Positions 35,025 through 60,960 of a stretch of DNA of 64,000 nucleotides are shown in pieces. The translations under genes and the position numbers were made by a program. Location: positions 62,001-126,000 of the forward strand of contig CAJYHN010000001.1 of assembly GCA_913774665.1 (NCBI GenBank). The letters run 5' to 3'. Each line of letters begins with the position of its first letter. The first letter of the stretch is position 1. The notes under the pieces were generated by a model. It did not search any database, had not been told where the DNA came from, and saw only the letters and a program-made list of their open reading frames with translations. The DNA comes from an uncultured Microbacterium sp. (GTDB lineage Bacteria > Actinomycetota > Actinomycetes > Actinomycetales > Microbacteriaceae).

Positions 35025-35858
35025 ATCACTGCTCAGCTCACCGTCGTCGGCGCCATCAACGTCGACCTCACCGCTCGCGTCCGGCGCTCCCCCGGCCCCG
35101 GTGAAACCGTCGCCGACGGCGTCCTCGACCGCGGCCCGGGCGGCAAGGGCGCGAATCAGGCTGTCGCCGCCGCCCGCCTCGGCGCCGACGTCCGGCTCAT
35201 CGGCGCCGTCGGCGATGACGCCGAGGGTCGTGGCATCCGGGACCGCTTCGCCTCGATCGGAATCGACGCCTCGGGCGTGCAGACCACGGATGCCGCGACC
35301 GGAACCGCCCTGATCGTCGTCGACGCGACGGGCGAGAACTCGATCGTCGTCTGCGCCGGGGCGAACGCCGCGATCGATGCGGACGCGCTCGGCATCGAGC
35401 CGGGAGCGGCGGTGCTGCTGCAGCTGGAGGTGTCGGATGCCGTGGTCGCGGCCGCCGCACGCGCCGCCGGGTTCCTCGCGGTCAATGCCGCCCCCGCCCG
35501 CCCGCTTCCCGCCGACGTCCTCGAGCGGTGCGATCTCGTGATCGTCAACGAAACCGAGTACGCGCAGCTGCCCGAGGTGCACGACGCGCCCCTGCTGTGC
35601 GTCACGCTCGGTGCCGCGGGCGCGCGGCTCTATCGCCTCGGCGAGCTCGTCGCGTCGGCCGCCGGGGTGCCGACCACCGTCCGCAACACCGTCGGCGCGG
35701 GAGACGCGTTCTGCGCGGCCCTCGTCGTCGGACTTCTTCGCGGCGACGACGAGGCCGACGCCCTCGCACGCGCCTGCGCGGTGGGCTCGGCCGCGGTCGC
35801 CGACGACGCCTCCCAACCGGCGCTCGACGCCCTCGACACGTACGGGGTCCCCGCATGA
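35025..35858 (+). CDS. rbsK: PfkB-family sugar kinase (ribokinase-like) with apparent ATC start
   Basis: A 277-aa kinase that phosphorylates a sugar, probably ribose. Landmarks: VVGAINVDLTARV, GGKGANQAVAAARLGADV (signature 1), IVVDATGENSIVV, LVIVNETEYAQL and the anion-hole/catalytic NTVGAGDAFCAALVVGLL (signature 2, catalytic Asp). No ATG, GTG or TTG exists in frame between the preceding stop codon (35007-35009) and signature 1. The only sensible start is ATC at 35025, seven bases after GGAAGG. It overlaps the nucleoside hydrolase start by 4 nt (ATGA), and that enzyme would release the ribose. Family is firm; ribose specificity is inferred. Confidence 0.85.
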   Translation: MTAQLTVVGAINVDLTARVRRSPGPGETVADGVLDRGPGGKGANQAVAAARLGADVRLIGAVGDDAEGRGIRDRFASIGIDASGVQTTDAATGTALIVVDATGENSIVVCAGANAAIDADALGIEPGAAVLLQLEVSDAVVAAAARAAGFLAVNAAPARPLPADVLERCDLVIVNETEYAQLPEVHDAPLLCVTLGAAGARLYRLGELVASAAGVPTTVRNTVGAGDAFCAALVVGLLRGDDEADALARACAVGSAAVADDASQPALDALDTYGVPA

Positions 35859-36778
35859 GCCGCCGACCGATCCTCGTCGACTGCGACACCGGCATCGACG
35901 ACGCCCTCGCCCTGGCCTACCTGCTGGCCGAGCCCTCGGTCGAGATCGTGGGCGTCACGACCGTTTCGGGGAACACGGATGCCGCCCGCGCGGCCGCCAA
36001 CACGCTGTCACTGTTCGAGCTCGCCGGCGAGGACGACATTCCGGTCGCGATCGGCGCCCACGATTTCCGCGCCCGCGCTTATGCCGGGGGTGCGCCGCAC
36101 GTGCACGGGGACGACGGCCTCGGCGGCATCGCCCTGAGCGCCGCGGCCCGCGCGCACGATGCCCGCGCGGCGGTCGAGCTCATCGACCACCTGGCGTCGC
36201 GGCATCCGGACCTCACCGTCCTCGCCCTCGGCCCCCTGACGAACCTCGCGGCCTACGCCGAGGCACCGGGAGTCGCCCGATTCGATCGCCTCGTCGTCAT
36301 GGGCGGCGCCTTCGCTCACTCGGGAAACGTCACCGCGTGGGCCGAGGCGAACATCCACAACGACCCCGAGGCCGCGGCCCTCGTCTTCGCGCAGGACTGG
36401 GACACCACCCTCGTGCCCCTCGACGTGACGATGACCCAGACCCTGGATGCCGCCGACCTCGTCCGCCTCGAAGCGATCCCCGGCGCACTGCCGCAGGCTC
36501 TCGCGCGCATGCTGCCGACCTACCTCGACTTCTACGCCCGGGTGTTCCCCGGCCGACGCTGCGCGCTGCACGATCCGCTGGCGGCGATGGTCGCCGCGGG
36601 GGCCCTGCGCGGGGTCAGCGTCGCTTCGGGCCACGTCGACGTGCGGCTCGAACGCGGCGAACGCGGGCGGACAGTCTCGGGCAGCGGGTCCGAGACGCAG
36701 CGCTGGGTCCGCGCCATGGAAGGCTGCGCCGTCGAGGTGCTGCTGGACCGCCTCGAGTCGCGGGAGTGGCCGGCCTGA
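35855..36778 (+). CDS. Inosine/uridine-preferring nucleoside hydrolase
   Basis: A 307-aa IUNH-family N-ribohydrolase cleaving ribonucleosides to base and ribose. The N-terminal calcium-binding motif is VDCDTGIDDALALAYLL. VTTVSGNTDAARAAANTL and ALGPLTNLAAYAEAPGVA are typical, EANIHNDPEAAALVF matches the family motif, and HDPLAAMVAAG provides the late His-Asp pair. Length normal. It is translationally coupled to the ribokinase-like gene (4-nt overlap), making a hydrolyse-and-phosphorylate salvage pair. No signal peptide. Confidence 0.93.
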   Translation: MSRRPILVDCDTGIDDALALAYLLAEPSVEIVGVTTVSGNTDAARAAANTLSLFELAGEDDIPVAIGAHDFRARAYAGGAPHVHGDDGLGGIALSAAARAHDARAAVELIDHLASRHPDLTVLALGPLTNLAAYAEAPGVARFDRLVVMGGAFAHSGNVTAWAEANIHNDPEAAALVFAQDWDTTLVPLDVTMTQTLDAADLVRLEAIPGALPQALARMLPTYLDFYARVFPGRRCALHDPLAAMVAAGALRGVSVASGHVDVRLERGERGRTVSGSGSETQRWVRAMEGCAVEVLLDRLESREWPA

Positions 36779-36787
36779 GGTTTCGCT

Positions 36788-36949
36788 CTAGCGGCGGCGT
36801 TTCAGCCACGCCGTGAACCGCGACGTGTGGCGGTCAGTGAACTCGTTCGCGAGCCGGAACGCCTCGTCGCCGATGTCAGCACCCGCGTCGATGGCCTCGA
36901 TCGAGCGGAGGGCTCGCTGTTCCTGTTCGTCCCGCTTGTCGTCGGCCAT
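36788..36949 (-). CDS. Small charged protein (53 aa)
   Basis: A 53-aa protein starting MADDKRDEQEQRALRSIEAI and ending FTDRHTSRFTAWLKRRR. It is acidic at the start and basic at the end, probably helical. The ATG at 36949 follows a CTGGACAC context without a strong ribosome site. It is convergent with the nucleoside hydrolase gene (9-nt gap). No family recognised. Confidence 0.55.
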   Translation of the reverse strand: MADDKRDEQEQRALRSIEAIDAGADIGDEAFRLANEFTDRHTSRFTAWLKRRR

Positions 36950-37007
36950 GGTGTCCAGGGTACGAGCGTCGGACGGGGTGGACACCGATAACGACAGAAG
37001 GAACGAC

Positions 37008-37041
37008 GAAGCCCGCCCTCGCGTGATGCGGGGCGGGCTTC
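37008..37041. terminator. Terminator at the chromosome/low-GC module boundary
   Basis: The perfect 11-bp stem GAAGCCCGCCC / GGGCGGGCTTC with a 12-nt loop, followed by GTTT. It lies 4 nt beyond the stop of the two-TM protein gene and probably ends that transcript. G+C content drops sharply immediately to its right. Confidence 0.75.
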
Positions 37042-37044
37042 GTT

Positions 37045-37884
37045 TCATGCCTCTCGTTCGGGCAAAAATTCCTGGGACCAGCTCCGTTCCACCGGCTCTG
37101 TGACGAGGTCGATGGGCGCGATGTCGTCGACCCCACCCCCAACTTTGTACTTCCCCGCCACCACATTCTCGAACTCAGGCTTCTTGTCCTGCTCGACGGC
37201 CACCGTGCCGAGCACAGACGACCGCCATGCCTCGCCATTGAGCGCGTCGTACTCCACTCCCACTACAAATTTCACTTCTCGCTGCAAGTCAACAAGCAGA
37301 GCAGAACCTTCAGTACTCGAGGCCGTCAACCGCACTTGTACAGAGACTTGCTCGCCCATGCCAATTGGCAGCGTCACCCAAGATTTCGACGTGACGGAAG
37401 GATGATCAGAAACGGCGACGGTCACGCAGGCGTTCATGGCAGTCTGCTCAGTCAGATTCCGCAGCCCAACTTCCACCTCGAAAGAGACTTCAGCACCCGA
37501 ACTGTGCTTCTCCGCCACGACGAGACGAACCCCGTATGAAGCGCGCCGGTCGACAGCCTCGCGGATCAAGTCTTCTTTGAAGATCGAGGGAGCGAGATAC
37601 GGCCGTTGCTCCTTCCGGCGATGCACGAGGTCTTTCGTGCGCTCCTTAGAGTCGTGGAGAAGTACGGCCAGCAGCCCCGCGAACGCTAGACCTGAGAAGA
37701 GCGCGTTGACCGCCCCAAATGCATCCCCGGCCGAGCCACGACCGCCGAGATCTCCGTCCCCAGCTAGCAGAGTAGGAACAATCAGTGTCACCAGTAGCCA
37801 CAGAGCGATCACTACAATCGCGAACCAAATGAGGGGCTTCAGTGGTTCCCAGCGCGCAGCTTCCAAGACCCTTTTATTGCTCAT
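37045..37884 (-). CDS. Two-TM membrane protein coupled to a DUF262 gene
   Basis: A 279-aa protein with two N-terminal membrane helices (about 18-40, IWFAIVVIALWLLVTLIVPT; about 57-77, GAVNALFSGLAFAGLLAVLL), then a charged helix (KERTKDLVHRRKEQRPYL) and a cytoplasmic domain of about 180 residues rich in beta strands (VRLVVAEKHSSGAEVSFEVE). The second helix pattern FSGLAFAGL resembles a widespread uncharacterised bacterial membrane-protein type. The ATG overlaps the DUF262 stop by 4 nt. The region is near 53-55% G+C against about 70% around it, and codon use is unlike the neighbours, so recent transfer is likely. In the context of its partner a defence effector role is conceivable, but nothing in the sequence proves it. 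Confidence 0.8.
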   Translation of the reverse strand: MSNKRVLEAARWEPLKPLIWFAIVVIALWLLVTLIVPTLLAGDGDLGGRGSAGDAFGAVNALFSGLAFAGLLAVLLHDSKERTKDLVHRRKEQRPYLAPSIFKEDLIREAVDRRASYGVRLVVAEKHSSGAEVSFEVEVGLRNLTEQTAMNACVTVAVSDHPSVTSKSWVTLPIGMGEQVSVQVRLTASSTEGSALLVDLQREVKFVVGVEYDALNGEAWRSSVLGTVAVEQDKKPEFENVVAGKYKVGGGVDDIAPIDLVTEPVERSWSQEFLPEREA

Positions 37885-39449
37885 TCCGGACGCTCATATT
37901 CGCTCGAGCCAGCACAAGCTCGCAGCCATTCCAAACGAATATTGGCCGCTTCCAAGTTCGTGACATCTTCACCAAATCCTTGCCCCGCGAGCGCTTCCGG
38001 ATGCAGATCGATTACCGAAACATCTCCGTTGCGTTGACCGAGCTGCAGCAGAGAACTCTCGGAAACATATCCAATCTCCACTAGTAGATCATTCGACTTC
38101 ACAGCCGTCCGCACCGATCCGTCATCGGACACACAAATTTCGGCGACAGATTCCCCCACCAGGCTGCGACCAGTGAGGAGATCGCGCACCCCGACGACCG
38201 AGGCTGCAGACTTCAAGCCACGCCGGAGGAGCCGGTTTCTGCGAGAATCATCGACCAACGATGCAAGCACCAGGTCCGGGACGAGTCGACCGTCCGAGAA
38301 TTCGAGTCGATGGTCCACATCGTATGTCACCTGCGTATTAGCGCCTTGCGCATACGTCTGCATCGCCACCGAGAACCAATACCACCTCTGAATATCGTTG
38401 ACGCGCGAAGCGATGCCGATTTCATTTGAAGCACCTACGAAGTACGCGACCACGAGAACCATCGCCCATGACGGGACGTCTTCCGGCAGCGAGACGCCGA
38501 ATCGCTTCCGCAGTAGCTCGAGCGCACCCACGTAGGCTTCTACTGCGTCATCCCAGCGAGTAACGACGTAGTCAGCAGGCACGTTAAGGACGTCCTTCTG
38601 ACGTACCCCTTGGACTCTCCGACTGGGCGGACGAATAGATTCCGGGGAACGATCCTCATCGCGTTTCCAAAGGGCAACTAACTTAAGAATCTCAATCGGT
38701 TCGACGTCGAAGTTCTCTTTGGCCAAGATGGGATGATGCCGCCTGGCCTCGTCCCACTCTTCTCGAAGATCGCGCCCTTCGTTATAAACCACTGCAACCA
38801 TGAGATCGAAAGCATCGAGACGCGTTCCGGTTCTGTTGAGCGTTTCAAAAATTCTTGTAAGTGCTTCGAGATCGATGTCCTCGCGCATCACAATTGCGGG
38901 GAGGGTGTACCCACCGTGTACCAGCTCGCCCAGTCGCTGCTCTCGGAGCGTCATCAGCAACTGTCGATCAGCCTCCGAGAGATCGTGCCACTTCTCGTAA
39001 CTCTTCGGGCGCAGCAATTCATTGACCGCCCACGTTGAATTCGGGGGGGTACGCTTACCACGCTTGCGCCATTGAACTGGTGGCAAGCCTTCTTCGTCGA
39101 GTTTTTCATCGGGCGCACGCAGATCGACGAAGTACTGAGTGTCGCCCACGTCCTGGAGGAGGTGAAGCAACGACGTTACCCTCTGCTGCCCATCCAGCAG
39201 GTAGTAACGAATGTTCTCACGGTCGGCTGCCTGCGCGACACCGTCCATCCGTTTGGTACCGAATCGTTGAGGGCCCTCAAGAAGTAGAAGCGATCCTACT
39301 GGCCAACCGTTGGCAACGCTGTCCAGTAGCTCGACCACGTTACTCGGACTCCATACAAAGTCTCGCTGAAAAGCGGGCAAAGCAAGCGTCCCGGCGATAG
39401 CCATCTCCACGACATCTTGTACGTGAAGATCGCGATATACGTGCCTCAC
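37881..39449 (-). CDS. DUF262 (GmrSD N-terminal-like) domain protein
   Basis: A 522-aa protein. The N-terminal third is DUF262, the ParB/sulfiredoxin-like nucleotide-binding domain of GmrS: ALPAFQRDFVWSP (residues 23-35), YYLLDGQQRVTSLLHLLQD (83-101, the DGQQR motif) and IFETLNRTGTRLDAFDL (about 203-219). The rest is helical with no HNH (GmrD) nuclease motif that I can see. GmrS-type domains hydrolyse NTPs and occur in modification-dependent restriction and other anti-phage systems. The apparent start, GTG at 39449, directly follows the nrdF stop codon (39450-39452). It is low-GC like its partner gene. The domain call is strong; the biological role is inferred. Confidence 0.85.
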   Translation of the reverse strand: MRHVYRDLHVQDVVEMAIAGTLALPAFQRDFVWSPSNVVELLDSVANGWPVGSLLLLEGPQRFGTKRMDGVAQAADRENIRYYLLDGQQRVTSLLHLLQDVGDTQYFVDLRAPDEKLDEEGLPPVQWRKRGKRTPPNSTWAVNELLRPKSYEKWHDLSEADRQLLMTLREQRLGELVHGGYTLPAIVMREDIDLEALTRIFETLNRTGTRLDAFDLMVAVVYNEGRDLREEWDEARRHHPILAKENFDVEPIEILKLVALWKRDEDRSPESIRPPSRRVQGVRQKDVLNVPADYVVTRWDDAVEAYVGALELLRKRFGVSLPEDVPSWAMVLVVAYFVGASNEIGIASRVNDIQRWYWFSVAMQTYAQGANTQVTYDVDHRLEFSDGRLVPDLVLASLVDDSRRNRLLRRGLKSAASVVGVRDLLTGRSLVGESVAEICVSDDGSVRTAVKSNDLLVEIGYVSESSLLQLGQRNGDVSVIDLHPEALAGQGFGEDVTNLEAANIRLEWLRACAGSSEYERPE

Positions 39450-39533
39450 TCAGAAGTCCCAGTCGTCGTCCTCGGTCGCCTCGGCCTTGCCGATGACGTA
39501 CGACGAGCCCGAGCCACTGAAGAAGTCGTGGTT
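39450..39533 (-). pseudogene. nrdF: 3'-terminal fragment of nrdF: prophage attachment site
   Basis: Twenty-seven codons plus stop on the minus strand read NHDFFSGSGSSYVIGKAEAT then EDDDWDF, the invariant C-terminal tail of class Ib ribonucleotide reductase beta subunits (NrdF). Immediately upstream (39534-39536) is an in-frame TAA, and no further nrdF sequence exists. This is the footprint of site-specific integration into the 3' end of nrdF: the element supplies a replacement tail for the real gene, which should lie at the other end of the prophage, outside the window. The recombination core lies somewhere in these 84 bp. Confidence 0.88.
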
Positions 39534-39885
39534 TTATTCAAGGCCACTGGCTACGTCCACTCAGTCTCGTTGACCCCGGATTTGTGCGGGTGTGGGACGA
39601 CTACGGACGACTACACCCGGTGTGATCCGTGGGCAGGATGTGGGCAAGCGCGCGACACGCAGGCACGCGTGCTTGCGCAGTGCGTGCACGCACGCTAGTT
39701 TTATGCACATGAGCACGAACACCACCAGGCCGGTGGCGGTGAACGCGGAAGCGCGGCACGCCAGAAGATGAGCAGGGGACGACGGAGTCCCCGCCAACGG
39801 CACGACGATCCACCGCCCCACCCCGCGAGAGAGCCCCATGGGACACCACGTCAGAAGAGCACCCGCCGCACACCGCGGCCACCGC
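39534..39885. other. Non-coding left end of the prophage
   Basis: About 350 nt without a convincing gene. It contains a perfect 14-bp palindrome GTGCGTGCACGCAC (39680-39693) next to CACGCGTG and a TAGTTTTAT stretch that could be a -10 region, followed by a 22-codon ORF (39703-39771, MHMSTNTTRPVAVNAEARHA then RR). This could be an arm-binding or promoter region near the attachment site. No integrase is encoded here. Confidence 0.5.
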
Positions 39886-39931
39886 ATAAGCCCACCGCTT
39901 ATCAACCCCGGACTATAAGCCGAGCGCTTAT
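39886..39931. repeat. Two tandem operator-like inverted repeats
   Basis: Two copies of ATAAGC-N5-GCTTAT (39886-39902 and 39915-39931), each a perfect 6+6 palindrome, start 29 bp apart. The spacers differ (CCACC and CGAGC) while the arms are identical, so the arms appear selected. AT-rich arms in GC-rich DNA near the phage end suggest a phage repressor or excisionase binding site. Confidence 0.65.
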
Positions 39932-39944
39932 CCCCCCGAAGTAC

Positions 39945-39974
39945 AGCCCCCGTCTCGCCGAGCGGGGGCTTTCT
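39945..39974. terminator. Terminator in the prophage left arm
   Basis: Stem AGCCCCC / GGGGGCT with a 12-nt GC-rich loop followed by TTCTT on the plus strand. It also lies 9 nt beyond the stop of the minus-strand gene at 39983. It may separate the operator region from the small-gene block. Confidence 0.6.
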
Positions 39975-39982
39975 TCATGCGC

Positions 39983-40156
39983 TCAGATCACTCCCCCACA
40001 CCACACGTTCTCACCGCGCTCGGCGTGCTTGCGCCACCCGGTGTGCGCGGTCTGCTGCGTCGCCGCGCGGCCGCGCTTCCCGCACTCGCACACCCATACG
40101 ACGAACAGGCCGTCGGCGTCCTCGTCGGGCATGAGTTCCTCGAGCGAGTGTTCCAT
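39983..40156 (-). CDS. Small phage protein (57 aa), possible metal-binding
   Basis: A 57-aa protein: MEHSLEELMPDEDADGLFVV, then WVCECGKRG, TAHTGWRKHAERGENVWCGG. The CxC pair, the late Cys and three histidines suggest a small zinc-binding fold common in actinophages. The ATG at 40156 has AGGAGG upstream and shares one base with the stop of the DUF3263-type gene, so the two are coupled. Function unknown. Confidence 0.65.
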   Translation of the reverse strand: MEHSLEELMPDEDADGLFVVWVCECGKRGRAATQQTAHTGWRKHAERGENVWCGGVI

Positions 40157-40356
40157 CACGCCGCCTCCTTCGCGAGAACGCGGCGGCAGAGCATCGGGTC
40201 CAGCGCCCACCCCTCCGCCGACCTCGCAGCGTGCAGGAGCAACTGGTAGTACCGTGCCGGCCGCAGCCCGAGCTCGTCGAAGATGAGCGACTCCTTGTGG
40301 CTGGTATGCCGGGGGTGGCGGTTCTCGAAGGCGAAAAGCTCGGGGACGGTGGGCAT
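40156..40356 (-). CDS. DUF3263-like phage protein
   Basis: A 66-aa protein with the DUF3263 pattern: ELFAFENRHPRHTSHKESLI, FDELGLRPARYYQLLLHAAR and DPMLCRRVLAKE, similar to small actinobacterial and actinophage proteins. The helix FDELGLRPARYYQLL looks like a helix-turn-helix, suggesting DNA binding. It precedes the 57-aa gene by a one-base overlap. Role in the phage is unknown. Confidence 0.75.
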   Translation of the reverse strand: MPTVPELFAFENRHPRHTSHKESLIFDELGLRPARYYQLLLHAARSAEGWALDPMLCRRVLAKEAA

Positions 40357-40403
40357 GTGGATAGTCTCCTCGGGGCCTCCGACATCGCCGCTACGCTCCC
40401 CGC

Positions 40404-40508
40404 ATGAGCATCCCGCCCCCGATCTCCTGCCCCCTATGCGGCACCGTCATCGCCGCGACATGGTGCCACGCGTGCCGCGTCGACGTCATCCCAGTTTCGG
40501 TGGGGTGA
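40404..40508 (+). CDS. Tiny zinc-ribbon-like ORF (34 aa)
   Basis: A 34-codon ORF: MSIPPPISCPLCGTVIAATW then CHACRVDVIPVSVG. Two CxxC pairs (CPLC and CHAC) spaced 9 residues apart make a minimal zinc ribbon. It starts 47 nt from the divergent DUF3263-type gene and is followed by the 93-aa gene on the same strand. No strong ribosome site (CTCCCCGC). The paired cysteines argue for a real gene. Confidence 0.5.
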   Translation: MSIPPPISCPLCGTVIAATWCHACRVDVIPVSVG

Positions 40509-40547
40509 CGTAGCCTGTCACGTGGCCGGGGAAGGGGACCGGTCTGC

Positions 40548-40829
40548 ATGGGATCGAACAAGGTCAGCGACGAGATGCTGTCACGCACGCTCACATCGGT
40601 GCACCCGATCACCCTGCCGATGCAGGCGTACGGGCCCGCCCCCGTGGAGTGGTTCGACCCGAAACTTCCCGTGTGGGCGTGGGTGCAATGGCCCAACCGT
40701 GCAGCCGAACGAGTCGAAGCGTGGGCCGCAGGGGCGAACGATCGCGTCGTCGTGCTCGAGGTGCCGTGCGACGGTGGGCACTGGCAGCCGGTCGTGTGGC
40801 GCAACGCGGTATCTATCCGACGGCTATGA
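40548..40829 (+). CDS. Phage protein of unknown function (93 aa)
   Basis: A 93-aa ORF starting at ATG 40548 with GAAGGGGA at good spacing. Sequence highlights: ITLPMQAYGPAPVEWFDPKL, VWAWVQWPNRAAERVEAWAA and VVVLEVPCDGGHWQPVVWRN. It is Trp-rich (seven Trp) and soluble, possibly a small beta/alpha fold. No family recognised. It is part of the short plus-strand block of the left arm. Confidence 0.65.
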   Translation: MGSNKVSDEMLSRTLTSVHPITLPMQAYGPAPVEWFDPKLPVWAWVQWPNRAAERVEAWAAGANDRVVVLEVPCDGGHWQPVVWRNAVSIRRL

Positions 40830-40878
40830 CAGCGGGTATGCTCACCACCATTTCCACTCCACAACCAAGGGGGATCCT

Positions 40879-41043
40879 GTGGAAGGCATCGTTCTCATGC
40901 TGTTCGGCTGGGCCGTCGGCCTCTTCGCGCTCTACTTCGTGATCACCGCCGCGGTGGCCGAGGGGATGAAGCGTCACACGCGGTGGCAGGTCGCCAACCG
41001 GGACGCGATCGAAGAGAAGTACGCGCAGCGCCCCGAGGTCTGA
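40879..41043 (+). CDS. Small single-TM phage membrane protein (54 aa)
   Basis: A 54-aa ORF from GTG 40879 with AAGGGGG six bases upstream. One membrane helix (IVLMLFGWAVGLFALYFVIT) is followed by a charged tail (MKRHTRWQVANRDAIEEKYA). It lies 49 nt after the 93-aa gene and is convergent with the tail-spike gene across a strong terminator. It could be a superinfection-exclusion-like or accessory lysis protein; nothing specific is recognised. Confidence 0.65.
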   Translation: MEGIVLMLFGWAVGLFALYFVITAAVAEGMKRHTRWQVANRDAIEEKYAQRPEV

Positions 41044-41055
41044 GCGCACGACGAA

Positions 41056-41096
41056 ACGCCCCCGGTGTCACCTCCGAAGAGGGACACCGGGGGCGT
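41056..41096. terminator. Bidirectional terminator between left arm and late operon
   Basis: A perfect 14-bp stem, ACGCCCCCGGTGTC / GACACCGGGGGCGT, with a 13-nt loop lies between the convergent 54-aa gene (stop 41043) and the tail-spike gene (stop 41113). It marks the end of the phage late transcript. Confidence 0.85.
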
Positions 41097-41112
41097 CGTC
41101 GTGTGCCGTTCG

Positions 41113-43641
41113 TCAGTTGAGCTTGACCCATCCAGATCCGCCGCGGTAGACGTACATACCCGCGCCGCTGCCGGAGACGACCTGTGACGGCGTACCGGAC
41201 GAGTAGATCCAGTCGCCGTCCTGCGGAGTGAGCGGCAGGGTGTTCAGTGGTAGCGCGACGCGGTCCGAGCGGGGGACGCGGATGGTCGGGGTGTTGACCG
41301 GCGTGATCACGTTCGCTCCGCTGCCGCTGCTGGTTACCCCGTCGAGAGTCAGCGTGAGCGTAGACCCGTCCACCCGTGCCAGGTTCGAGCCGGTGAGGAT
41401 CGAACCGCCTCGGAAGGTGATGTCGGCCTGCTTGCCGCCAGACACGAACACCGGGTGCACGCACCCGTTGATGATCGAGTCGACGACAGCCGCGCGGCAG
41501 ATGACGGATCCCGTGGCTCCCGACCGCACGGCGAAGAGGGTCTTCGGGTTGAGCAGGTTGAGCCGGGACAGGATCCCTGCCGAGAGGACACCTCCGGGCT
41601 GGAAGACGATGCCGTGATTGTCGCCGGACCCGCCGGCGAAGGTGAGCTCCCACGCATCCGCGATGAGTCGGTCGACGGTTCCGTTCAGATTCAGCACAGG
41701 GCCGTCGATCGTCACGCCGAGAGCGGTGCGGAGGCGGCGCATGGCGAGGCTCTTCACCCGCGAGTACACGTTCGTTCCGTACGTGTTGATCAGAACGACC
41801 GAGTTGGGCGTCTGCGTCGTCTCGATGATGAGCCCATCGATCTCGATCCCGTCGAGCGGATCCTTCGACCGCACGTTGAGGAAAGACTGACCCGATGGTG
41901 CCGACTTCCACGAGCAGTCGCGGAACGTGACGCCCTGCATCGAGAGCCCAGCGAACCGGTAGTCGATGAGGGCAGCGCTGCTCCCCGCGGTCGAATCGAA
42001 TCGCACACTCTGGAAGACGATGTTTCGGAGCGTGAGCTGTGTCTGGCCGTCAGCCGGCGCGCCGTTCGAGTCTTTGTAGACCGTGAACGCTGATGCGGTC
42101 GGAGTGGATGCCCATTGACCACCGATGAAGGTCACGTCCTGGATGGTCCCCGCGCCGCTGTACTCGGCACCGTCCACCTGGTCGAAGTCGGAGAGCATGC
42201 CGACACCGGGGCCGCCGTTGACGGTCAGGCCCTCCACGACGACGTCGCGGATGTTTCCGACCCCCTGCCCTGCTCCGGTGGTGCGGGTACCGACGAGGAA
42301 CTTGATCGCTCGAGCGGAGTGACCACGGGGGCCGGTCCCGAGGTAGGTGCACCGCTGAATGATGACGCCCTGGATGTCGCCGGACGCCGGAGACGAGCGG
42401 TGCCAGTCCCATGCGTTGAGAGCGATGAAGTCGTCATCGGTGTATCCGGTGACATCGCGGATGGTGACGTTTTGGCTGGGCCCGGAGATGTGCATTCCGT
42501 CGCGCGCGGTGTTGAGCGCGATCGACGCCAGGGTGACGCCGGTGCCGAGAGCGTGAACAGCGAAGCCGTTGCAGTTGACGATGGTGGTGTTGCGGATGGT
42601 GACGTTCCGCACACCGATCAGGTTGAGGTCTCCCTGGATGCCGTAGAGCAGCGAGTTCTTCGCCGCGGAGGTCTTGTCAGCCTGCGCGAGGGTGGACTGG
42701 TTGTTGGCGTAGTTGCCGTCCCAGGTGCCGCCCTCGATCACCATGTTCGCGTCAGTGAGAACGTCGCCCGCGGTGGGGTTGGCGTTGCGGAGCATGCAGA
42801 CGTTGCCCGTCGCGGCGTCCGCCTTGCGGATGGTGACACCGGGCCCGAGGCGGAGGGTGATGTTCGACCGCATGAGAATGTGATCGTCGATGTAGTAGAC
42901 CCCGCTGGCGGGAACCTCCACCACACCGCCGCCGGCTGCGTTCACCTGGGCGATGGCCGCGTTGATGGCAGCTACGTTCGCCGTCGCCTTGTCGAGTCCG
43001 GCTGACAGCTTCACGTAGGTCGTTGCCAGCACGATCGAGGCCGCGGCGGCGACTGCGGCATCCGCCGACGCCTTCGCGTCGTTCTTGTGCCCCAAAGCCG
43101 AGGCCGCAGACTGACCCGCCGCGAAAGCCGACCCCCCTGCGCGGTTCGCATCGAAATCCGCCGCGCCAGCGAACGTGCCAGCATCCGTCGCAGCCTCAAG
43201 CGCCTGAGCGGTCTTCGCGGCCACGTCCGCCTGCATCCCAGACACCTCGCCGACGACGAGCTCCCAGGCGGTCACGACGTCCGTCACCGGCTCGTACGTG
43301 CCCGGGTCGACGGCCACGAGGGCAGAGATCGCCACCGGGCCGACGCCGGGGATCGCGACCGCCGGGAGCACCAGCGGCGACGGCGCATACGGCTTCACCG
43401 ACTGCACCGTCACGCGCGCGTAGCATCGTGCATCGGTGGGCGGCACGTCCACGATCACGGTGGGGACACCGTCGACGATCGGCACTCGGATGGCGTTCGG
43501 CAGGAGCGCCGTGGTGCCGTCCGTGCGCACCGACGGGGCGCCGTCCGCCCCGTAAAGGTATTCGATGAGGACAGAGCCGTCCTGCACGGCGGCGCGGCCA
43601 CCGATCGCGGTGACGGCGGCGGTTACGTCGATGACGGTCAC
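41113..43641 (-). CDS. Tail spike/fibre with right-handed beta-helix (pectate-lyase-like)
   Basis: An 842-aa receptor-binding protein. The N-terminus (about 1-150) is a virion-attachment region (VPIVDGVPTVIVDVPPTDAR), then a helical Ala-rich coiled-coil stretch (ALGHKNDAKASADAAVAAAA). From about 220 a parallel beta-helix begins, with INAAIAQVNAAGGGVVEVPA, VYYIDDHILMRSNITLRLGP, VIEGGTWDGNYANNQS and repeated NVTIRN-like rungs, as in polysaccharide-degrading spikes. DGMHISGPSQNVTIRDVTGY and TDDDFIALNAWDWHR place Asp residues where GH28-like enzymes have catalytic ones. The start is GTG at 43641, overlapping the 36-aa gene by 4 nt. It probably cleaves a cell-surface glycan. Confidence 0.85.
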   Translation of the reverse strand: MTVIDVTAAVTAIGGRAAVQDGSVLIEYLYGADGAPSVRTDGTTALLPNAIRVPIVDGVPTVIVDVPPTDARCYARVTVQSVKPYAPSPLVLPAVAIPGVGPVAISALVAVDPGTYEPVTDVVTAWELVVGEVSGMQADVAAKTAQALEAATDAGTFAGAADFDANRAGGSAFAAGQSAASALGHKNDAKASADAAVAAAASIVLATTYVKLSAGLDKATANVAAINAAIAQVNAAGGGVVEVPASGVYYIDDHILMRSNITLRLGPGVTIRKADAATGNVCMLRNANPTAGDVLTDANMVIEGGTWDGNYANNQSTLAQADKTSAAKNSLLYGIQGDLNLIGVRNVTIRNTTIVNCNGFAVHALGTGVTLASIALNTARDGMHISGPSQNVTIRDVTGYTDDDFIALNAWDWHRSSPASGDIQGVIIQRCTYLGTGPRGHSARAIKFLVGTRTTGAGQGVGNIRDVVVEGLTVNGGPGVGMLSDFDQVDGAEYSGAGTIQDVTFIGGQWASTPTASAFTVYKDSNGAPADGQTQLTLRNIVFQSVRFDSTAGSSAALIDYRFAGLSMQGVTFRDCSWKSAPSGQSFLNVRSKDPLDGIEIDGLIIETTQTPNSVVLINTYGTNVYSRVKSLAMRRLRTALGVTIDGPVLNLNGTVDRLIADAWELTFAGGSGDNHGIVFQPGGVLSAGILSRLNLLNPKTLFAVRSGATGSVICRAAVVDSIINGCVHPVFVSGGKQADITFRGGSILTGSNLARVDGSTLTLTLDGVTSSGSGANVITPVNTPTIRVPRSDRVALPLNTLPLTPQDGDWIYSSGTPSQVVSGSGAGMYVYRGGSGWVKLN

Positions 43642-58163: not shown

Positions 58164-59468
58164 TCAGACGAGCGCGTTGTAACGCGCCCAGAGCAGCTCG
58201 GCGAGGCGCTTCTCCTGGTCGGTGCCGTTGCGGCGAACCCGGTCGATGCGTCGGATGAACCCGGCGCGGAGAATGTCGGCGTCCTCGTCGCTGATCGAGG
58301 TGAAGACCTGCCCGCGGTCGGCGGAGTTGCCGCCGATGGTGCGCGCGCGGCGCAGGAGGAGTGCCTGTTCGGCTCGGTAGTAGTCGTCGTAGATGCGCCG
58401 CTCACCGGCGGTCATCGTGGACCGGTTGAGGGGGTCGCGCTGGCCGCTCACGAGAGCGTCAAACTCGGCGGCACGGCGGGTGGTGACGCGTTCCGCGCCC
58501 ACCAGGTACGTGCCGCGGCCACGCCCGCGCGCGATCGTCGCGGCGTTCGTCGACGCGTTGCCTCGGATGTTGCCGCCCGCGACCTGCGGTCCGGTGACGT
58601 ATCCCTCACGGGCGAGCATCTCGATTGCCTGCTGGCGGGTGCCGGCTTCGCGGTACACGTCGTCGACGGTCATCCGGGAGGGCGTGCCGAACTTTCGAGC
58701 CTGCTTCGCTGTGGACAGCCCCCGCGACCGGGTGTTCACGACGCGGTAGATGTCGCCGCCGTCGCGGATGGCCTGCGCATCGCTCTTTCCGAACAGGCGG
58801 TCCTGCATCTTCGGGTCGAGCGAGCGGAAGTAGGCGTAGGGGTCGATGGTCAGATCCCCCGCAGCGGCCTCCTGCGCGGGAATGTGCCGGCAGTCGCAAT
58901 GCGGGTGAGAGGGGAACCCCTCGTTCCAGCGGAACCACTTCCCGGCAAGAGTGACGCAGAACTTGCAGGACGGCGGGTTCAGCATCCGTACCCACCCCTG
59001 CACCGCGGGCCGCACGGCGATCGACGCGGACACAGCCTGTCGGTCGGCCTCTCGGGTCGCGTCGAGCACTGCTCCGCCGAGCCAGGTGCGCGCGCTCTGC
59101 AGTGCGGCCGATGCGGCGATACCCTGACCGACGAGAGTCTTCGCGCGGTACACGGCCCCATCGAGGAGCGTTGCCAGCGGGCGTCCATCCTTCGTCGTGC
59201 CGACGAATGCGCGTGCATTGACTCGCGCCTCGGGTGGTGCTTCGACGCCGGTCTCGTCGAGGACCGATGCGGTGTACGCGATCCCCGAGAGGGCGGCGGC
59301 GAGTTGCCCCGCCGACGCCGCCTCGTAGACGTGAGGAGAGATGGCCGACCACGACGTGTCGAAGTCGTCGGTCATCCCCGACCACAGGCGATCAACCGTG
59401 CGCGCCGTGCCGACCGAGATGGCCTGCTGATCCTGGTAGTGGCTAATCGCCGCCTGCGGGAGGACCAT
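58164..59468 (-). CDS. MuF-like minor capsid protein (VG15 type)
   Basis: A 434-aa minor head protein. The central cysteine/histidine cluster NPPSCKFCVTLAGKWFRWNE and GFPSHPHCDCRHIP is the hallmark of the actinophage VG15/MuF class. The C-terminal half (QARKFGTPSRMTVDDVYREA, GTYLVGAERVTTRR, DADILRAGFIRRIDRVRRNG) is basic and helical. MuF proteins bind the portal and are injected or help head assembly. The ATG at 59468 lies inside the 3' end of the portal gene (26-nt overlap). Confidence 0.85.
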   Translation of the reverse strand: MVLPQAAISHYQDQQAISVGTARTVDRLWSGMTDDFDTSWSAISPHVYEAASAGQLAAALSGIAYTASVLDETGVEAPPEARVNARAFVGTTKDGRPLATLLDGAVYRAKTLVGQGIAASAALQSARTWLGGAVLDATREADRQAVSASIAVRPAVQGWVRMLNPPSCKFCVTLAGKWFRWNEGFPSHPHCDCRHIPAQEAAAGDLTIDPYAYFRSLDPKMQDRLFGKSDAQAIRDGGDIYRVVNTRSRGLSTAKQARKFGTPSRMTVDDVYREAGTRQQAIEMLAREGYVTGPQVAGGNIRGNASTNAATIARGRGRGTYLVGAERVTTRRAAEFDALVSGQRDPLNRSTMTAGERRIYDDYYRAEQALLLRRARTIGGNSADRGQVFTSISDEDADILRAGFIRRIDRVRRNGTDQEKRLAELLWARYNALV

Positions 59469-60960
59469 TCACGACCTCCGTCTGATCGACGACCGGGCGT
59501 GCCGGAGGCGTCGTGTCCTGCAACGCGCGGCCCGCGCGGGCGAGTTGGTTATCCCAGATCTCGTCGTCGGCGTGCTCGATCCAGGTCTCGACCTTCTGCT
59601 TCGTCGCTCCCGGCAACATCTGCCAGGCATCCCGCTTCGGGAAGCCCGACGCGATGAGCTTGGTGATGCCGTCGACGATCTGCGCGAACGACTTCGCTTC
59701 GGCGTCGGCGTAATTCATCTCGGCGTCGGGGAAGTCGCTGTCCACGCCGATGCACTTCGCGCCGCGGCGGAAGATGCCCTCGTTGCCCTCGGCACCGATG
59801 AGCTGTATCTCTTTCACCAGCGCTGCGAGCGTGGATTCCGCGCCAGCGAGCGCGTCGCCGGACAGGTTCGACATGCGCGAGAGGAGGTACTGCGGCGGGA
59901 TCTGGCCCGTCGCGAAGAACTGGGTCAGGAACTCTCCGAGCACCTCGATGTAGTTCTTGAGGTTCGACTCGGCGAGGTCGAAGACTTTCGTGTCACCGCC
60001 CGGGAACGCGAGCAGACGGTCCACGCCCACCCGGCCCGGTGAGGTGAGGACCGGGATGGGATTCCCGTTCGCGTCGGTCTGCAGCGACCCGTCGCCGTTC
60101 TTGCGGAACGTCGGGTTGCCGTCCTTGTCGCGGACGATCGGGTCGAAGCCGACGACGATCCGCTGCCGGAACGCCGAGAACTGCATCGCGAGGAGGGTGT
60201 TGAAGCGGATCGTGTTGATGGCGTCCTGCTGCGGGATGAGCGGGTCCATCGGCGATCGAACCTGCCCGCGGCTGTCGGGTCGGTAGTCGAACGTCTGGAA
60301 GGGGTTCTCCCCCATCGGGTGAGTGCCCGTGGTGACAACCTCGAAGTTGGCATCCCCTGTACGCCCGCCGCGCTCAAGGCGGATCATGCCCTCGTCGTCG
60401 TACACGACCGCGATCGTCCGCACCGTGCCCGATAGACCGAAGGGCAGGATCAGCTGCCCGGTCGCGGCGCTGTAGTCGTTGACCGTCCAGACCTTCACCG
60501 ACCAGTCGTGAGTGAACGGGTCATCCTCGGACGGGTGCAGGTAGACGAGCTCGTTCGACTCGGGCCGGACGATCGGCTTAGACCGGTCGGCGAGGTTGGG
60601 CCAGACGGACATGATGCCGCGACCGTGCTTCATCATGTCCTGGTACGGGTTCTGCTGACGCGCGTCGAGCTTGTTGCGCTGCCACACGTCGCGCCACAGC
60701 GTCTTGTCCAGGTCGTCGCTCTTGTGCGTCGCGAACGACTCCCCGCGAAGGCGCTGCACCGGTGCTCCCACCGCCAGCGCGATCCAGTTGGCGACGGCCT
60801 GCTTGCGCAGATCCTCGTACTCCTGGTTCACGCCGACGGGGGCGAACGGGAGGTCGTGCTCGCCGCGGTCGTACCGCTCCCGCTTCTCGATCTGGGGCCG
60901 GCTCTTGGTGAGCTCATCCAGAGCGATACGGATGCGCTGGCGGGCAACGTTGACGTCCAT
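59443..60960 (-). CDS. Portal protein (SPP1 Gp6-like)
   Basis: A 505-aa portal subunit. Landmarks: RYDRGEHDLPFAPVGVNQEY, AVANWIALAVGAPVQRLRGE, WQRNKLDARQQNPYQDMMKH, QQDAINTIRFNTLLAMQFSA, FDPIVRDKDGNPTFRKNGDG, FATGQIPPQYLLSRMSNLSG and DAEAKSFAQIVDGITKLIAS. The pattern and length match the SPP1-type portal family in actinophages. It starts 9 nt after the terminase large subunit. Confidence 0.9.
   Translation of the reverse strand: MDVNVARQRIRIALDELTKSRPQIEKRERYDRGEHDLPFAPVGVNQEYEDLRKQAVANWIALAVGAPVQRLRGESFATHKSDDLDKTLWRDVWQRNKLDARQQNPYQDMMKHGRGIMSVWPNLADRSKPIVRPESNELVYLHPSEDDPFTHDWSVKVWTVNDYSAATGQLILPFGLSGTVRTIAVVYDDEGMIRLERGGRTGDANFEVVTTGTHPMGENPFQTFDYRPDSRGQVRSPMDPLIPQQDAINTIRFNTLLAMQFSAFRQRIVVGFDPIVRDKDGNPTFRKNGDGSLQTDANGNPIPVLTSPGRVGVDRLLAFPGGDTKVFDLAESNLKNYIEVLGEFLTQFFATGQIPPQYLLSRMSNLSGDALAGAESTLAALVKEIQLIGAEGNEGIFRRGAKCIGVDSDFPDAEMNYADAEAKSFAQIVDGITKLIASGFPKRDAWQMLPGATKQKVETWIEHADDEIWDNQLARAGRALQDTTPPARPVVDQTEVVNGPPAGGD

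Follow-up and report, generated by a model that had tools for sequence, protein, structure and literature searches.

Two adjoining genes at positions 37045 to 39449 of the window (the whole 64,000-nucleotide stretch of Microbacterium DNA that was analysed) are best read as a two-gene defence module descended from a GmrSD/BrxU-type (type IV restriction) ancestor, in which the HNH nuclease would have decayed and a membrane effector would instead bring about abortive infection. We give this reading a probability of about one half. Type IV restriction is viewed as the sensing of foreign DNA followed by its cutting, and proteins with two transmembrane (TM) segments are common effectors in abortive infection. 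The module pairs a relative of type IV restriction enzymes, whose catalytic nuclease residues are replaced, with a two-TM protein.

Anatomy and chromosomal site of the module

The module and its surroundings comprise the following features.

35852-36778, plus strand: nucleoside hydrolase (IU_nuc_hydro), the chromosomal left neighbour and left border of the variable nrdF site
37006-37022, minus strand: terminator-like hairpin just past the 3' end of the module (consensus match only)
37045-37884, minus strand: two-TM gene, 279 aa, downstream of the DUF262 gene
37881-39449, minus strand: DUF262 gene, 522 aa, GTG start
39450-39533, minus strand: att site formed by an 84-bp copy (89% identity) of the nrdF 3' end
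39534-64000, unstranded: part of the prophage inside the window, with the portal gene at 59443-60960; continues to contig position C1:140991

The open reading frames at 37881-39449 and 37045-37884 are both intact and overlap by 4 nt, exactly as the first-pass annotation of this DNA had claimed, and the two-TM protein is probably co-translated with the DUF262 protein. The annotation had also called the genes AT-rich relative to their surroundings, and indeed the GC content of the module is 57.0%, compared with a window mean of 69.4% (sd 3.0; 308 segments of 2.4 kb); a single one of these segments is as GC-poor as the module, and it overlaps the module itself. The GC content at third codon positions is 59% and 66% in the two module genes versus 85-94% in nrdF, the integrase, and three phage genes, a sixth comparison row being left out because it was out of frame. 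The proposed placement between a terminator and an attachment site holds, with the hairpin (a consensus match) at 37022-37006 on one side and the nrdF 3'-end copy on the other. The stretch that contains the hairpin, 37001-37043, has 40-bp matches (83-88%) elsewhere in six of 11 relatives, and the terminator at the end of the module may therefore be a repeated terminator of the genus. No match to a sigma-70-like promoter was obtained in 36700-41200, a consensus from which actinobacterial promoters may differ.

The GTG start of the DUF262 gene is the codon directly following the stop of the nrdF copy (TGA GTG). Intact nrdF lies 39.5 kb from this copy, at C1:140992-141966 (C1 being the contig that contains the window), where it is adjoined by genes for a phage integrase (Pfam 3e-22) and an M78 peptidase, with the portal gene further in. 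A prophage has thus entered the 3' end of nrdF; it carries a tyrosine integrase and spans ~39.5 kb between the copy and the intact gene. The two att copies (39450-39533 and C1:140992-141075) differ at nine sites. The module-side copy agrees with nrdF of the two nearest relatives at 82 (L026) and 81 (L027) of 84 positions, compared with 76 and 75 for the attR copy, and among the 20 further relatives shown, the two copies are about equally close, or now one and now the other is closer. Prophage cargo was considered as an identity for the module and set aside, because the module lies outside the att copy and this copy is nearer to nrdF of L026 and L027. Judging by these alignments, the module is likely chromosomal and external to the prophage, which likely supplied the present nrdF tail; before the prophage arrived, transcription of nrdF may have extended into the module. 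The phage integrates in the coding end of nrdF, the gene of the ribonucleotide reductase small subunit, and seems to carry with it a tail that replaces the lost one.

The nucleoside hydrolase is found on the same contig as nrdF in four of the 11 relatives searched, and the genes between the two differ widely, which marks the interval as a variable site. In G006 it holds a TetR gene (by Pfam), in G020 a gene that looks TetR-like by eye, in G007 a block that includes proteins with many TM segments, and in G009 an MBL-fold gene with two partners of low third-position GC (L258:1234-3674), which is weakly like Lamassu LmuA and RTasMBL and is possibly another defence module. The neighbours of the window's own module that can be named are the nucleoside hydrolase and the prophage. 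To the right of the window, the prophage contains a gene for a C5-cytosine DNA methyltransferase (L021:4241-6181, contig C1:130241-132181; Pfam DNA_methylase 1e-25). DUF262 enzymes often sense modified cytosine, and the methyltransferase and the module might therefore interact.

The DUF262 protein and its two-TM partner

The identification of the larger protein as a DUF262 protein of the GmrS type is borne out by a Pfam GmrSD_N (DUF262) match at 9.8e-25 and by its GmrSD_N/ParB-Srx fold of the BrxU type, with a large BrxU-like body. The NTPase motifs of GmrSD enzymes, as listed in PMC12137116, are retained: QR (28-29), DGQQR (86-90), and FxxxN (201-205). The catalytic positions of the HNH nuclease, by contrast with these retained motifs, are replaced, with G444 and S445 in place of HH, and E458 and L467 in place of the two N. 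The earlier observation that no HNH/GmrD nuclease is visible also stands, since the protein has no Pfam DUF1524/HNH match, and our own HNH profile gave none either. In alignment A5, the HHxxP element of the HHxxP-N-N nuclease signature is present in 27 of 28 other rows (22 of the 28 in the form HHxFP, F included), but all five proteins for which a two-TM partner had then been identified lack it. Their C-terminal parts can nonetheless be aligned with those of the HNH proteins (hhalign P 1.6e-5, probability 57%); the match is weak for the window protein and its L018 counterpart alone (P 0.006, probability 3%). Going by these alignments, the C-terminus of the DUF262 protein seems once to have had the nuclease and then lost it, rather than to have been without it from the start. 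In PADLOC, the best match of the protein is protein C of the candidate system PDC-M55 (5.8e-25), alongside weak matches to PD-T4-2 and Menshen (6.4e-6 and 1.2e-4).

The 279-aa partner has TM segments at about residues 18-38 and 55-77 followed by ~190 residues, in agreement with the two membrane helices and soluble domain described earlier. Its net charge is +2 before TM1, -2 between the segments, and +3 after TM2, which indicates that both termini are on the inside (N-in/C-in); the region after TM2 would be cytosolic and is predicted, with low confidence (model pLDDT 54.5), to be rich in β-structure. At this pLDDT, the best Foldseek match (a C2 domain, E 0.02) was not used to assign a fold. 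Assignment to a known family was likewise abandoned, since nothing exceeds the Pfam cut-off (best DUF6082, E 0.018) and there is no PADLOC, NCBIfam, or PHROGs match.

The family of this protein is sparsely distributed. No relatives were found in plasmids or phages, and 82 pattern matches in viral contigs include none; among 58 relatives, the window's own genome is the sole carrier of the family. The searches of family and phylum genomes scored only a few candidates per genome. They gave four matches among 398 family genomes (the own genome, a true relative in G351, and two weak ones) and two among 396 phylum genomes (the own genome and G1131). The weak matches, in G390 and G061, were dismissed as chance, being ORFs in flagellar-export-like neighbourhoods (named by eye). 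A member of the family thus stands beside DUF262 in two genomes only, that of the window and G351. The G1131 protein (L177; A2 profile E 2.3e-8) resembles the window protein over the TM hairpin, GDxFGxxxALFSGLAFAG, only. It carries a putAbiC domain (PF16872), and a reverse transcriptase gene lies ~2 kb away; the combination of putAbiC membrane protein and reverse transcriptase gene in L177:6520-11237 is possibly a retron/DRT-like locus in its own right.

Recurrence of the pair

Absence of the two families together outside this strain had been named as grounds for giving up the proposal. Six further genomes have an HNH-less DUF262 gene adjoining a two-TM gene, which makes seven with the window's, with gaps of -4 to +3 nt. 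Co-occurrence outside this strain is therefore supported; G351 carries a member of the window's two-TM family, and the two-TM proteins of the other five genomes are dissimilar to it. In G351 (locus L018) the gene order and the 4-nt overlap are the same as in the window, and BLAST gives 44% identity between the DUF262 proteins over 507 aa; in the alignments, the identity is 46% for the DUF262 proteins and 31% for the two-TM proteins. In G017, G713, G701, G242, and G236, the order is opposite, a two-TM gene encoding 267-309 aa lying upstream of the HNH-less DUF262 gene. These upstream proteins are themselves diverse (58, 20, 16, and 19% identity to the first row), and their profile bears no resemblance to that of the window family (hhalign probability 0.4%). 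None was found in plasmids with the two members tried, and two plasmid relatives of the DUF262 protein have HHIFP and HHFFP, each with one neighbour checked and this neighbour devoid of TM segments.

A defence-island context of the pair is seen in single cases only. Near L018 lie a gene for an nSTAND NTPase and an ORF that resembles an integrase but falls short of the Pfam cut-off, near L180 a TrwC relaxase, near L019 a gene with a DndB domain, and near L185, where the examined stretch ends, a helicase domain like that of type IV restriction enzymes; L186 adjoins gatB, and the one neighbour of L178 that was tested gave no match.

The association between HNH loss and a two-TM partner was assessed in a census, which started from 160 sources, of which 158 had a DUF262 ORF, 154 remained once proteins identical at their ends had been removed, and 150 encoded at least 480 aa. 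A protein was called HNH-positive if it matched a profile made from those 27 rows of A5 that have HHxxP, or the pattern HH[IVFL]xP, and a two-TM partner was called if an adjacent same-strand ORF of 150-420 aa, at a gap of -10 to +40, had exactly two N-terminal hydropathy peaks. Such a partner is present at none of 112 HNH-positive and seven of 38 HNH-negative loci (Fisher p 4.3e-5), in a sample that is enriched for kin and in which five of the seven pairs served as profile seeds. When kinship is allowed for, the link loses its significance (median p 0.5 in the sign test; one or two of five independent pairs informative), and it rests on one or two events. The remaining 31 of the 38 HNH-less proteins, among them the close relative L205, have no two-TM partner, and among further HNH-less relatives that score >340 with the census profile it is present in G242 and G236 and missing in L205/G1266 and L260. 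The last of these, on a viral contig and counted apart (L260:3694-6629), is an HNH-less DUF262 gene near the two-TM-paired group with a YaaC-like gene upstream. In a viral set examined afterwards, a DUF262 ORF was present at 22 of 24 loci, with HNH at 13 of them, and none of the 22 had a two-TM neighbour; three repeat places counted earlier. Many of the 31 HNH-less proteins that have no two-TM partner adjoin a close gene without two TM segments, which suggests that partner exchange may be general. One other partner recurs in L214, L222, and L223, where an HNH-less DUF262 gene is overlapped by 4 nt by a downstream gene of ~350 aa without TM segments.

In a quick tree built from residues 1-380 of those 90 among the 150 proteins that scored best, the window protein and L018 (support 99) join three HNH-bearing proteins from Chloroflexi/Dehalococcoidia records (96), and the five remaining two-TM-paired proteins cluster with L205 (96). 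This split suggests two separate exchanges; a single clade is neither demonstrated nor rejected (p-AU 0.10 for all seven pairs, 0.32 with L205 included).

Known systems and a possible mode of action

The published systems are described here from excerpts of the cited papers, with further literature in PMC3710099, PMC12707154, and PMC11090510. The window protein shares QR, DGQQR, and FxxxN with the BrxU/GmrSD type IV restriction enzymes, but it lacks the catalytic HH...N...N of their C-terminal HNH/DUF1524 domain and has a two-TM partner instead. DUF262 systems without a nuclease domain have precedent (PMC10952713, PMC11980606). In ptuXYZ, a DUF262 gene likewise lacking this domain forms an operon with other genes, whose products are a PtuA-like ATPase and a PIN-BECR RNase rather than a membrane protein (PMC11980606). 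In Dazbog, a DUF262 gene without DUF1524, as in the window, is needed for defence, the system is described as responsive to methylated DNA/Dam, and one paper lists it under abortive infection (PMC10952713, PMC12926258, PMC11680222). This likeness concerns the DUF262 gene, and neither window protein has a PADLOC match of that name, although PADLOC may lack such a model. The pair may have been described already, in particular as Dazbog. PD-T4-2 and Menshen too have DUF262 without DUF1524 in multi-gene systems, and the domain is required for Menshen defence; the Menshen partner is a predicted OLD nuclease, whereas that in the window is a two-TM protein without a family match above the cut-off, and PD-T4-2 is listed with HEPN, which neither window protein matches (PMC10952713). 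TgvAB, GrwAB, and GmrS1/GmrSD2 resemble the module in having two genes and a nuclease-less DUF262, but their second gene is a DUF262 gene with a nuclease (PMC12409362, PMC11411939, PMC12137116, PMC12373910). Protein C of PDC-M55, a system not named in the literature searched, is matched by the window DUF262 protein, whereas the two-TM protein matches no PADLOC model. Proteins with putAbiC (PF16872) have an N-terminal TM hairpin like that of the window partner, which lacks both the PF16872 domain and a match to the AbiC model. The excerpted enterobacterial GmrSD survey (20 groups) finds two predominant architectures, single and double GmrSD genes, and the excerpts of the open-access literature searched describe no system of DUF262 plus membrane protein.

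From the anatomy of the module, its retained and lost motifs, its recurrence, and its variable site, we infer a defensive role, its trigger, a contact between the two proteins, and an action at the membrane. The DUF262 protein would sense invading DNA, probably modified; NTP hydrolysis would change its shape, and it would then engage the cytosolic domain of the two-TM protein rather than fire a nuclease of its own. The two-TM protein would in turn disturb the membrane, so that the infected cell is stopped and possibly killed. This reading is favoured by the DUF262 domain with its BrxU fold, by the retention of the NTPase motifs alongside the loss of HNH residues in C-termini that are still alignable with HNH, by the seven tight pairs and the partner count in the census, by the resemblance of the TM hairpin to that of the putAbiC protein, and by the low GC and the variable site with its LmuA/RTasMBL-like gene in G009. 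It is weakened by the seed bias of the census, the loss of significance under kinship, the majority of HNH-less proteins that have no two-TM partner, and the viral loci without a two-TM neighbour, as well as by the restriction of the window's own two-TM family to two genomes, the poor model of this protein, the weak HNH match of the window and L018 proteins, and the nature of the nameable neighbours, a nucleoside hydrolase and the prophage.

Among the alternatives, it is conceivable, though unlikely, that the two-TM protein does no more than regulate DUF262 or anchor it at the site of entry, and that the ParB/Srx-like core, or else a nuclease whose gene lies elsewhere, attacks the DNA. Generic anchoring would fit two dissimilar two-TM families, a nuclease activity of its own has been proposed for the GmrS core (PMC4619093), and PtuX, which has DUF262 but not DUF1524, is described with different partners and as a putative nuclease (PMC11980606). 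Against mere anchoring speak the resemblance of the TM hairpin to that of a putative Abi protein and the presence of the partner, in this sample, only where HNH has been lost. That the membrane protein is small, and that the two genes overlap so closely, by 4 nt, both in the window and in L018, would also suit a pair akin to toxin-antitoxin systems, in which a constitutive two-TM toxin is held back by DUF262 and any anti-phage effect is secondary or absent, but the NTPase motifs and the large BrxU-like body would be superfluous in a plain antitoxin, and we consider such a pair improbable. Similarly improbable is a decaying remnant, that is, a former type IV restriction gene without its nuclease, now cargo and possibly silenced once the prophage had cut its link to nrdF: the HNH residues are gone, no promoter was matched, and the prophage does separate the module from nrdF, but both frames are intact, the DUF262 protein keeps its NTPase motifs and its 44-46% identity to L018, and the HNH-less, two-TM-paired state is found in seven genomes.

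If the pair is a defence module with a membrane effector, a broader proposal can be made tentatively. Sensors of the GmrSD type may, perhaps twice independently, have given up a nuclease that cuts DNA in favour of an in-trans effector at the membrane, once in the lineage of the window and L018, with a downstream β-rich two-TM protein, and once in that of L019, L178, L180, L185, and L186, with an upstream, dissimilar one. They would then form a class of abortive-infection systems derived from type IV restriction, which recognizes foreign DNA and answers at the membrane. The pair is small and lends itself to cloning, and were the proposal true, it would permit a direct test of NTP-driven sensing that is passed to an effector in trans, and the DUF262 switch would be a general-purpose sensor with exchangeable outputs.
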